Source: Treponema sp. CETP13 (lineage in GTDB: Bacteria > Spirochaetota > Spirochaetia > Treponematales > Treponemataceae). Taken from it: DNA of 64,000 nucleotides. A model generated the notes under the pieces. That model was not told the origin of the DNA, searched no databases, and worked only from the letters and a program-made list of their open reading frames with translations. This document shows, piece after piece, positions 7,659 to 40,553 of the stretch; the first letter of the stretch is position 1; each line of letters opens with the position of its first letter. The stretch is taken from contig MLPZ01000001.1 of the NCBI GenBank assembly GCA_001885315.1, positions 248,001 to 312,000 of the forward strand. Direction: 5' to 3'. Position numbers and translations under genes: made by a program.

Positions 7659-8291
7659 ATGGAAAAAATATTACTTGCTCCATCTATTTTGTCAGCTGAT
7701 TTTGCTAATCTTTCGACTTCGATAGATAAGATTAAACGAGGGGGTGGCAATTGGGTTCATATAGATGTAATGGATGGATCTTTTGTTCCCGATATTACCA
7801 TAGGACCTCTTGTAGTAAAGGCAATTAGACCTCTTACAGATTTACCATTTGATGTACATCTTATGATAGATCATCCTGATAGGATTATCCCTAGATTTGC
7901 TGAAGCTGGAGCCGATTATATTACTTTTCATTGGGAAAATGTAATACATCATCATCGAGTAGTACAACAAATTCATTCTCTGGGTAAAAAAGCTGGAATA
8001 AGTATTGTTCCATCGACTCCTGTATCAGCAATAAAAGAAATTCTTCCATATGTAGATCTTGTTCTTGTTATGAGTGTTAATCCAGGATTTGGTGGTCAAA
8101 AACTTATACCAAGTTGTATAAATAAATTAACTGAACTTGTATCTATTAAAAATGAAAATAACTATGATTACTTTGTTTCTGTCGATGGCGGAATAAATAA
8201 TGAAACATTACCGTCTGTCTTAGCTACAGATCTTGATGTTGTAGTATCTGGTTCTTCATTTTTCTCTGGAAATTTAAAGTGGGAGAAATAG
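7659..8291 (+). CDS. rpe: Ribulose-phosphate 3-epimerase
   Basis: Interconverts ribulose 5-phosphate and xylulose 5-phosphate in the pentose phosphate pathway. The 210-residue TIM-barrel product shows the family signatures in order: LAPSILSADFANL at the N-terminus, VHIDVMDGSFVP, FDVHLMIDHPD, MSVNPGFGGQ and VDGGINNE. The metal-binding His and Asp residues in these motifs are present. The start at 7659 places the protein's first residues exactly at the usual family N-terminus; an open frame extends further upstream but codes nothing family-like. No Shine-Dalgarno sequence precedes the ATG. Confidence 0.95.
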   Translation: MEKILLAPSILSADFANLSTSIDKIKRGGGNWVHIDVMDGSFVPDITIGPLVVKAIRPLTDLPFDVHLMIDHPDRIIPRFAEAGADYITFHWENVIHHHRVVQQIHSLGKKAGISIVPSTPVSAIKEILPYVDLVLVMSVNPGFGGQKLIPSCINKLTELVSIKNENNYDYFVSVDGGINNETLPSVLATDLDVVVSGSSFFSGNLKWEK

Positions 8292-36523: not shown

Positions 36524-36560
36524 AAAAGATGTAATATTTAAATATTACATCTTTTTTTTT
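36524..36560 (+). terminator. Intrinsic terminator after flgE
   Basis: Perfect inverted repeat GATGTAATATTT/AAATATTACATC with flanking A4/T9, 33 bases past the flgE stop. It should end transcripts from the flbB promoter before the inserted peptidase gene. Confidence 0.8.
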
Positions 36561-36572
36561 GGAGCTAATTAT

Positions 36573-38653
36573 ATGGCAAAGCTAAATATAAAGTATTTTC
36601 TGTTATTTGTACATTTGTTGTTGCAATATTTTTATTCACAACATGTTCTCAGACTACAACAGTTAGCGATACATCAGGGAGTGTTCCTCAGGATTTAAAA
36701 GTTATTTCTGAGTTATCTAGTTCAACTGAAATAATGCTTTCATGGTCTCTAGTAGAAAATGCTACAGAATATTACGTTTATTATTCAACGACAGCAAATG
36801 ATTCTTCAGCACAGAGTATTCCTGCTTCTCCTCCGCCAAATGGAAATTTTTTATCTGGAACTCGATTATCTATAGTTCGTAATTTAGAGGTCGATACAAC
36901 GTATTACTTTAGTGTTTTGCTATTATAAACTCTTTAGAAAGTGATAAATCAGAAGAGGTTTCAGCTACTACTAGTTCAGAGGGAGAAAGCCAAGAAGAAA
37001 ACGCAACAACCGGTGATTATATCTTAATAGATTCGAATACAAGTTCTTTGACTTTATCAGGTCTTTCAAATAATAATTTATATTTAATTAAAACAAATCC
37101 AAGTGATAATACAATTTCTTATAGTATGACAGGATGTGTAGAAAGTGTTACTGTGTCGGAAGATTCTTCGGATTCAAGTACAGATGAATCTGATAATGTT
37201 CTTTCACCTGTTATAAATTCTATAGATACGATTGATACTTCTAATTCTGTCGAAACTTATCTCTCTGGGGTATTTGATGATGGTACAAAGACTATTAGTC
37301 GATATGATAATCCTGATGTTCGTGATTTTAATAATAACCCTCCCGAGTTGGTCGGTGATGTTACAAGTTCTATTGTTACAAGCTCTAGAAGTGTACTAAG
37401 TACAAGTTCAGATTCTTCAACTGATACAGATACTGATAGCTATACAGATACTGATATAGCAAATGCGACAAAATCTTTTTATGTCCAAGATGCTGATGAT
37501 GATTGGGTAGAGGAAGATGCTACCTTGTATGCAATAGGCGATAATTGTTATGTATGGATAGCAGATGATAACTATGATGATGAATCTGATTCTGATTCGG
37601 ATAATGTTGTAACAACAACCCAAGCACAAGCAATTGCAGACAAATTTGATCTTGTATATGATCCAGAAACTGCGGTTTTCGGTGACAAATATGATGAAGA
37701 TGATGCAGCTGAAGGAACTTATTTAGTGGATCCAGCAGAGAAAATATCAATCTTTATTTATGATATTAGCTATGATTATGACGAGGATCAAAGTAGTGGA
37801 ACATTCGGTTTTTTCTGGGCAAAAGACTTTTATACCGATAATTACATGCAAGAGACGTATGAATACAGAAGTAATGAAACAGAAATGTTTTATATAGATG
37901 CATATTTTTTAGATAAATATTCAGATTATATGTATTCTACCTTAGCACATGAGTTTCAACATATGCTTCATTTTGTACATAAATATATTGAGCAAGGGTT
38001 ATCTTCTTCGACTTGGTTTAACGAAATGTTATCTATGACATGCGAAGATATGATGCAAGATTTATTAGAAATAGATGATGATTATTCTCCAAAGTCACGT
38101 TTGTGGTATTTTAATCAGTATTATAATTATGGAATGACAGATTGGCTAGATGATGATGGGGTCTATATCTCTTATGCAAATGCTTATGCTTTTGGAGCTT
38201 ATATGGCGCGAAATTATGAGGGAGCATCATTTGTTCAAGAGCTTGCTTCTAATGATAGTGTAGATATGGATTCTATTACGGCAGCATTATCTACCTTTGG
38301 TTATTCGGATGAGTTTGATGACATTTTTGAGGATTGGGGACAAGCTCTGATCTATACAGATGCAACCGATGTTTCAGATACTCTTTCGTACAACAAAACT
38401 GTAGAAGATGATACAGGAATTTACGACGATTATACGTATCCATTTAATGCAATAGATTTGACTTCAGATGATTATAACGGGGGGGGGACCAACAATTTAT
38501 TCAGCAACAGATGATTTAGGGTCTCTTTATCCTTATGGATTTTCGGTACATTCTGTTACAGATGATGATGATAATACCAGTTTTACTGGCACTGTAACAT
38601 TAGAACTGTCAACTAGAGATACAAATGAAGTTATGTATGTCTTGGTAGACTAA
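36573..38653 (+). pseudogene. Frame-disrupted lipoprotein metallopeptidase (M30/hyicolysin-like) with FnIII-like domain
   Basis: Three frame changes interrupt one gene. The start ATG at 36573 (GGAG 8 bases upstream) encodes MAKLNIKYF, then the frame changes at a T4 run (36597-36600) into SVICTFVVAIFLFTTCSQ, a lipoprotein signal. A fibronectin-III-like segment (MLSWSLVENATEYYVYYSTT) ends at another T4 run (near 36915-36918), after which the frame continues to 38514. This part holds LAHEFQHMLHF, an HExxH zinc site, and an E in TWFNEML, as in M30 peptidases. A G9 tract at 38479 gives a premature stop; a G8 tract would extend the protein to 38653. One extra T in each T4 run would repair the 5' part. 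It may be a pseudogene, a phase-variable gene or partly mis-sequenced. Confidence 0.65.
38479..38487 (+). repeat. Poly-G tract (9 G) inside the peptidase reading frame
   Basis: Nine consecutive G in a strongly AT-rich region. With nine G the reading frame ends at 38514; with eight it continues to 38653 through 55 further residues. Homopolymeric G tracts of this length are known slippage sites in treponemes. Confidence 0.8.
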
Positions 38654-38789: not shown

Positions 38790-38824
38790 TTTTTTTATTA
38801 ATTATTTATGATATAATCCGATAA
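38790..38824 (+). promoter_or_regulatory. Putative promoter(s) for the flbD-motA operon
   Basis: TATAAT at 38812-38817 is a perfect sigma-70 -10 box, but the -35 region is only a T-run. It overlaps TCCGATAA at 38817-38824, which matches 7 of 8 bases of the sigma-28 -10 consensus, with TTAATTAT 11 bases upstream as a poor -35. The ATG of flbD is at 38832 with no Shine-Dalgarno sequence. Downstream of a terminator and an inserted gene, a new promoter is needed here. Confidence 0.45.
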
Positions 38825-38831
38825 TTAGAAT

Positions 38832-39029
38832 ATGATAGAAGTAGAACGTTTAAATGGAACTTTATATTGGATTAATCCTCATCAAATAGAAATAATAGAA
38901 TGCAATCCTGATGTGACACTTTGCATGCTTTCAGGTAAAAAGTTTGTTGTTAAGAACTCTCCTGAAGATATTATAAAAAAGATTATAGATTACCGAAAAA
39001 AAATCGGCGCTTTTAAAAACGAATTGTAG
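38832..39029 (+). CDS. flbD: FlbD, small flagellar protein
   Basis: The 65-residue product matches the FlbD family seen between flgE and motA in spirochaetes: MIEVERLNGTLYWINPHQIE and the closing SPEDIIKKIIDYRKK. The fold is probably beta-beta-alpha; the role in motility is not established. The stop codon TAG supplies the first G of the 9-base G tract that precedes motA. Confidence 0.9.
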   Translation: MIEVERLNGTLYWINPHQIEIIECNPDVTLCMLSGKKFVVKNSPEDIIKKIIDYRKKIGAFKNEL

Positions 39030-39037
39030 GGGGGGGG
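39029..39037 (+). repeat. Poly-G tract (9 G) serving as the motA ribosome binding site
   Basis: Nine G run from the last base of the flbD stop codon to one base before the A-ATG of motA. It is the only purine-rich candidate for a Shine-Dalgarno sequence. Changes in length would alter the position and strength of pairing with 16S rRNA. Confidence 0.8.
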
Positions 39038-39038
39038 A

Positions 39039-39830
39039 ATGGATTTAGCGAGTATTCTTGGTGTTGCTGGGGGATTAGCATCTCTTATTTTTGCTGTTGC
39101 AACCGGCCCAAGTGGTATAGGTGGTCTGTCTGGGATTTTTAATATCCCATCGCTTGTTTTTGTAATTTTTGGTTCATTTTGTGCTATACTTCTTTCTTTT
39201 CCAATGCATAATGTTTTTAAAATGTTTGGAGTAATGGGTGGAATTTTTCATATTCCAGATTATAACGAAAATAATCTTATCCAAAATATGGTTGCTCTTG
39301 CAGAAAAAGCTCGGCGTGAAGGTATTCTAGCTTTAGAAGAAGGTTTAGAAGATATGACAGACCCTTTTATGAAAACAGGGTTACGTCTTGTTGTTGATGG
39401 TACAGATGGGACAATTATTCAAGCTATTATGGAAAACGAAATTAATCAGTTAGAAGATAGACATTTAGGTTGGATAACAATGATTATTCAGTGGGCAGGG
39501 TTAGGTCCTTCTTATGGTATGATGGGAACAGTTATTGGACTTATTGGTATGCTTTCTAATATGGAAGACACATCTTCTATTGGACCTAATATGGCTATAG
39601 CGCTTGTAACAACTTTGTATGGTTCTTTGTTGGCGAATATGTTTTTGGTTCCAATTTCTAATAAACTTACGTATCATCACAAAAAAGAAATAAAAACTCG
39701 AGAAATGGTTCTAGAAGGTGTTCTTTCTATTCAGGCAGGAGATAATCCTCGGGTTTTAGCTATGAAATTATTGACATATTTGGATCCAGAGTCGAGAAAA
39801 ACAATCGAAGCAGATGTTCTAAAGGATTAA
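39039..39830 (+). CDS. motA: Flagellar stator protein MotA
   Basis: MotA forms the ring of the ion-driven stator. The 263-residue product has four hydrophobic segments: the first at the N-terminus (LASILGVAGGLASLIFAVA), the second near 45-60, and a pair near 155-210 with the motif GPSYGMMGTVIGLIGML and ALVTTLYGSLLANMF. The large cytoplasmic loop contains the usual charged residues (EKARREGILALEEG). The poly-G tract immediately upstream acts as its ribosome binding site. motB starts 3 bp later. Confidence 0.95.
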   Translation: MDLASILGVAGGLASLIFAVATGPSGIGGLSGIFNIPSLVFVIFGSFCAILLSFPMHNVFKMFGVMGGIFHIPDYNENNLIQNMVALAEKARREGILALEEGLEDMTDPFMKTGLRLVVDGTDGTIIQAIMENEINQLEDRHLGWITMIIQWAGLGPSYGMMGTVIGLIGMLSNMEDTSSIGPNMAIALVTTLYGSLLANMFLVPISNKLTYHHKKEIKTREMVLEGVLSIQAGDNPRVLAMKLLTYLDPESRKTIEADVLKD

Positions 39831-39833
39831 TGG

Positions 39834-40553
39834 ATGGCAAAAAAACAAAAAAAGACCTTGGCAGGGCCTTCAAAGGCTTGGCTTGAAACTTATGGAGATA
39901 TGATTACTCTTATGTTGTGCTTTTTTGTTATGCTTTTTAACCCAACAGAGGTTGATAAAGTTCAAGTTGCAGCTATTTCTGTGGCACTTAATGGCGATCC
40001 AAATGTTGGTGGAATTTCTTTAGCAGATGGCACAATGTCAGATTTAGGTAATAATATTAATTCTCTACCTAGTATGGAAAAAGGTTCAAATTTAGGTCCG
40101 GCGTTTAAGAAGGCTATAAGTCTTTTTTCTCCAGATTTAAAATCAAATAAAGTGAGTATTACTTCTGATCAGCGAGGGTTAGTTATAACGCTTGCTTCTG
40201 ATTCTTTTTTTAGGACAGGAAGTGCAGAATTAGATATAGAAGAAACTCGAGAAACTCTTTTGCGTCTTTCTCAGTTTTTATCTTCTAGTGATTTAGGTAA
40301 TCGTCAGTTTCGTATAGAAGGGCATACAGATTCTACTCCTGTCGATCCTGATATGTGGCCCAGTAACTGGGAACTATCTTCTATGCGTGCGATAAATGTG
40401 TTACACTATCTAAGCGATTTTGGTGCAGATGAAGCACGATTTTCAATCGTTGGATATTCAAATACAATGCCTAAGTATAGTAATGATACAGCTGAAGGGC
40501 GAGCATATAATCGCCGGGTTGATATTATCATTCTGGACGAAGGACATTTTTAA
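39834..40553 (+). CDS. motB: Flagellar stator protein MotB
   Basis: The 239-residue product has one transmembrane helix with the ion-binding Asp in [16 protein letters not shown], a plug region and a C-terminal OmpA-like peptidoglycan-binding domain ([28 protein letters not shown]-type end seen as [13 protein letters not shown]). It couples MotA to the cell wall. AAGGA precedes the start; fliL follows after 30 bp. Confidence 0.95.

Follow-up and report, generated by a model that had tools for sequence, protein, structure and literature searches.

A run of nine guanines as the probable Shine-Dalgarno sequence of motA in a Treponema genome

The stator gene motA of this Treponema genome is preceded by a homopolymer of nine guanines which is probably its working Shine-Dalgarno (SD) sequence, a recent site of normal strength that would be prone to slippage and would lose MotA if shortened. 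Most likely the run is a mutable site that is tolerated and incidental, not one that has been selected as a switch; switching of motility by tract length is no more than plausible. The window, the whole stretch of DNA that was analysed, has a length of 64,000 nucleotides and corresponds to positions 248001-312000 of contig 3 (GC 33%) of a 2.54-Mb genome (G000). Coordinates are those of the window unless another contig is named. The features of the junction are the following.

39029..39037, + strand: G9 homopolymer, putative SD of motA by position and 16S pairing
38832..39029, + strand: flbD (swrD) coding sequence, Pfam FlbD 1.2e-23, same reading frame as motA
39039..39830, + strand: motA, flagellar stator subunit, 263 aa, Pfam MotA_ExbB 2.1e-29
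39834..40553, + strand: motB, Pfam MotB, own SD weak (AAAGGA)

An earlier note had placed nine Gs at 39029-39037, between the flbD stop and the AATG of motA, and had taken them for the only SD candidate of this gene. The count is exact and the position is borne out: flbD ends in ...TTG TAG, the third base of the stop codon is the first G of the run, and eight further Gs and one A precede the motA ATG at 39039. Nothing else upstream pairs usefully with the 16S tail. The reading of the run as the motA SD, also put forward in that note, draws good support from its position, its pairing energy, the lack of an alternative and the replacement of an SD that is conserved in relatives. The start codon of motA is secure, since all 16 aligned MotA proteins share the first two residues, M1 and D2. 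The genes flbD and motA share one frame, with a stop between them and a gap of 9 nt. Since motB starts three bases past the motA stop and its own SD is weak, its translation is probably coupled to that of motA. The reading frames of the flagellar genes next to motA are intact, which shows that frameshifts are not general in the assembly, and an assembly error was rejected as the whole explanation of the run.

The relatives of this MotA are treponemes. The motA start was readable in 79 of 80 retrieved relatives, all 79 of which have an SD containing GAGG or GGAG, often overlapping the end of flbD. In the close relatives L009 and L071 the junction is kept as TAGGGTAGGAGG (...GAACTGTAGGGTAGGAGGAATTGCGTAATG). 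Of the 66 readable junctions, 39 have the flbD stop within four bases of where motA starts. Among 245 family genomes at least seven Gs before motA were found in this genome alone, with six in G018 and G006; the relatives have no conserved poly-G at motA. Because the relatives keep GAGG or GGAG and every other motA in the family genomes has fewer than seven Gs before it, the run is regarded as having replaced a conserved SD in this genome alone. Judged from these sequences the replacement is recent and private to one genome, and this privacy points to a recent, possibly incidental change; the run may represent neutral slippage.

Pairing was estimated using a model of contiguous 16S pairing plus a spacing penalty, with Salis-type parameters calibrated on E. 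coli. The 16S tail was taken from relatives (GGATCACCTCCTTTCT; CCUCCUUU used for pairing), since the genome's own 16S rRNA is absent from the assembly. In this model the nine Gs pair with CCUCCU at about -7.7 kcal/mol and a spacing of 4-5; the corresponding motA values are -7.5 for T. lecithinolyticum, -8.6 for G028 and -5.1 kcal/mol for the common GAGG type. Nine Gs would be about equal in strength to the SD of the relatives. Modelled runs of other lengths gave -6.2 (eight Gs), about -1.3 (seven) and below -10 kcal/mol (twelve or more). The predicted effect of length is one-sided: the site would fail at about seven Gs or below, while above nine its pairing would hardly change or would become stronger. 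In the model, length thus acts through an asymmetric threshold and not as a smooth rheostat, and this threshold shifts by 1-2 Gs with the optimal spacing assumed. Folding of the junction was no stronger than that of shuffled sequences (z +0.5 and +1.4), so that a leader hairpin hiding the SD was rejected.

According to the proposed mechanism, a conserved GGAGG/GAGG at the flbD-motA junction would recently have become nine Gs by conversion and slippage. The run would pair with the 16S tail by G-C and G-U in several registers and would therefore form a normal-strength site at near-optimal spacing. Its length falls in the range of slippage (about 8 or more Gs); as it is long enough to slip in replication, variants with 7-11 Gs are likely to occur among the cells. 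If about two Gs were lost, MotA, and coupled MotB, would be expected to drop sharply, while gains would change little. Such a steep loss and flat gain would arise because the spacing needed is available solely from the 5' end of the run.

The transcription context comprises two further features.

38809..38817, + strand: TGATATAAT, candidate extended -10-like promoter of flbD-motA-motB, no good -35
36528..36560, + strand: terminator-like hairpin and T run after flgE (folding z -5.0), parting flgE from the flbD-motA unit

A consensus promoter scan did not pick up TGATATAAT at 38809-38817. This element lies 14 bases ahead of the flbD ATG, and flbD-motA-motB is therefore likely to have a transcript of its own; the closeness of the element to that ATG suggests that the flbD mRNA, which has no evident SD for flbD, may be nearly leaderless. 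Between the flgE hairpin and flbD lies a lipoprotein gene (36570-38653; Fn3 and HExxH protease-like) with three frame changes, near 36600, near 36930 and at a G9 of its own (38479-38487). Many spirochaetes have intact relatives of this gene, and the same genome carries a paralogue with 60% identity at C13:138547.

Long G runs are rare in the genome. There are 22 runs of at least seven Gs (15 G7, 2 G8, 4 G9, 1 G10), and most of the G7 and G8 runs are in frame within coding sequence, where they encode Gly-Gly. The five runs of at least nine exceed geometric decay (binomial P 0.0001-0.01 for step ratios of 0.15-0.25). The window has four G8 matches against 0.12 expected, which is not chance. Among 349 sampled genes of contig 3, motA alone has a G run longer than five in the SD zone, all others having five or fewer. 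The other long runs are the following.

38479..38487, + strand: G9 at a frame break of the lipoprotein gene, the second G9 of the window and not part of the motA site
C4:12907-12915 (L175, about 7908-7916): G9 as the putative SD of a second gene, directly before the ATG, AAAAAGGGGGGGGGCATG
C13:129093-129102: G10, in frame within the gene of a polymerase-like membrane protein (L176, 8402-9676)
C2:5140: long G run, non-coding

Two of the five runs of at least nine Gs thus stand at an SD position, the chance of which is about 0.0002 under random placement, SDs being G-rich anyway. The gene at C4:12907 encodes a 158-aa protein without a Pfam family and lies ahead of HlyD-type and OEP outer-membrane export genes; its relative in G053, the only good one found, has a GAGG-type site instead of poly-G. 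The G10 gene on C13 adjoins glycosyltransferase and flippase-like genes and looks like a classical contingency locus.

Across the family the pattern G9-N1-7-ATG is about as frequent in the forward direction as in the reversed control (85 vs 71, summed over 36 genomes) and most of these places are not gene starts, so that a general poly-G SD signature was rejected. True gene starts with poly-G at the SD position were found at L200 (GGDEF/PAS), L203 (NAGPA lipoprotein), L210 (CHASE2), L218 (unknown), L225 and L256 (HD-helicase), and L260. On these sequences, poly-G SDs seem to recur in the family but to be rare. Many of the family matches are promoters of the form TTGACA-G9..14-TATAAT (L216, L222, L224), a kind described in T. 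pallidum, and promoter-type phase variation appears to be widespread in Treponemataceae. The sequence TAGGGGGGGGG(G/GG)AGAATG is present in three copies in the complete genome G032, L250 among them, which suggests that this poly-G junction belongs to a repeated element or to a gene family.

Two readings other than the preferred one concern the role of the run in translation. A G-rich SD may simply have drifted to nine Gs and vary in length to little effect, with reinitiation from flbD to motA buffering MotA; ribosomes that finish flbD, nine bases before motA, could start again on the latter and would hardly need an SD, the two genes share a frame with a gap of 9 nt, and SD overlap and tight flbD-motA junctions are common in the family. 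The relatives nevertheless conserve a good SD despite these tight junctions, which argues that the motA SD matters and leaves this reading unlikely. A selected contingency locus, in which tract length switches motA translation and is kept for mixed motile and paralysed populations, is a little less probable still. It agrees with the genomic excess of runs of at least nine Gs, with the placement of two of the five at an SD position and with the in-frame run in the polymerase-like gene, which belongs to a surface-polysaccharide cluster and is a target typical of contingency loci; switching of motA (PMC3928116) and, by a reference listed in PMC11898584, of fliP is known in other bacteria. The tract is, however, private to one genome and kept in no relative, the usual targets of such loci are surface antigens, and G9 followed by ATG is no commoner in the family than in the reversed control.

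Regulation by other means than ribosome binding has far less in its favour. A promoter-type poly-G, as in the tpr genes of T. pallidum and in other treponemes, is common in the family, but no -35/-10 pair flanks 39029-39037 and the run lies about 200 nt inside the flagellar transcription unit, which makes a promoter role for it the most improbable reading considered. Hardly more credible is a RepG-like sRNA whose C/U-rich loop would bind the G run, with run length setting the repression of motA: this logic is known from H. pylori tlpB (PMC8295292), where the G repeat is separate from the ribosome binding site (RBS), whereas the motA tract is itself the only SD candidate. The working, slippable SD remains the preferred reading. 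A further proposal, put forward tentatively and judged rather unlikely, is that slippage within the SD itself constitutes a natural translational threshold switch of a stator gene, as part of a limited group of poly-G SDs in Treponemataceae. That group would include motA and the 158-aa gene of the HlyD/OEP cluster here and, elsewhere, candidate GGDEF/PAS, CHASE2 sensor, NAGPA lipoprotein and HD-helicase genes. If tract length does alter MotA, a single slip would adjust or halt the flagellar motor with the coding sequence untouched, 16S pairing and spacing would suffice to predict the effect, and poly-G tracts adjacent to treponemal starts, including those of T. pallidum, could be variable RBSs and not only promoter elements.

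The earlier note held that a translational switch of the stator would be new. A literature search combining poly-G, Treponema, Shine-Dalgarno and phase variation gave no match, and no case in which the slipping tract is itself the SD was found in the papers searched. The claim of novelty needs qualification, as its parts have precedents in T. pallidum, C. jejuni, H. pylori and M. tuberculosis. Of 17 poly-G tracts in T. pallidum, 76% vary in length, and in vivo one 9G tract had between 7 and 11 Gs (PMC7864442). The closest likeness is with tp0381, tp0617 and tp0986 of that treponeme, where runs of at least eight Gs stand at -1 to -7 of annotated starts; variable tracts are located at -7 and -1 (tp0381, tp0617), tp0381 has up to ten lengths and tp0986 is among the minimally or not variable ones. 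Unlike the motA run, these tracts do not belong to motA or a neighbour, and use as an SD is neither proposed nor tested for them in the part of PMC7864442 drawn on here. The promoter poly-G tracts of tpr genes and tp0126 also control expression by length in a treponeme; they act on transcription through a promoter, whereas the motA run lies between coupled genes and lacks promoter boxes. In C. jejuni a reversible change from G5 to G4 switches motA and motility, but the tract is inside the gene and acts by frameshift (PMC3928116). The M. tuberculosis espR 7G leader resembles the motA case in that a one-base change in G number alters translation at the same mRNA level, and differs in lying 144 bp upstream and acting through leader folding rather than as an SD (PMC11898584). 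RepG-tlpB of H. pylori provides graded post-transcriptional control by the length of a leader G repeat in a motility-related operon, there mediated by an sRNA and with the repeat apart from the RBS (PMC8295292).
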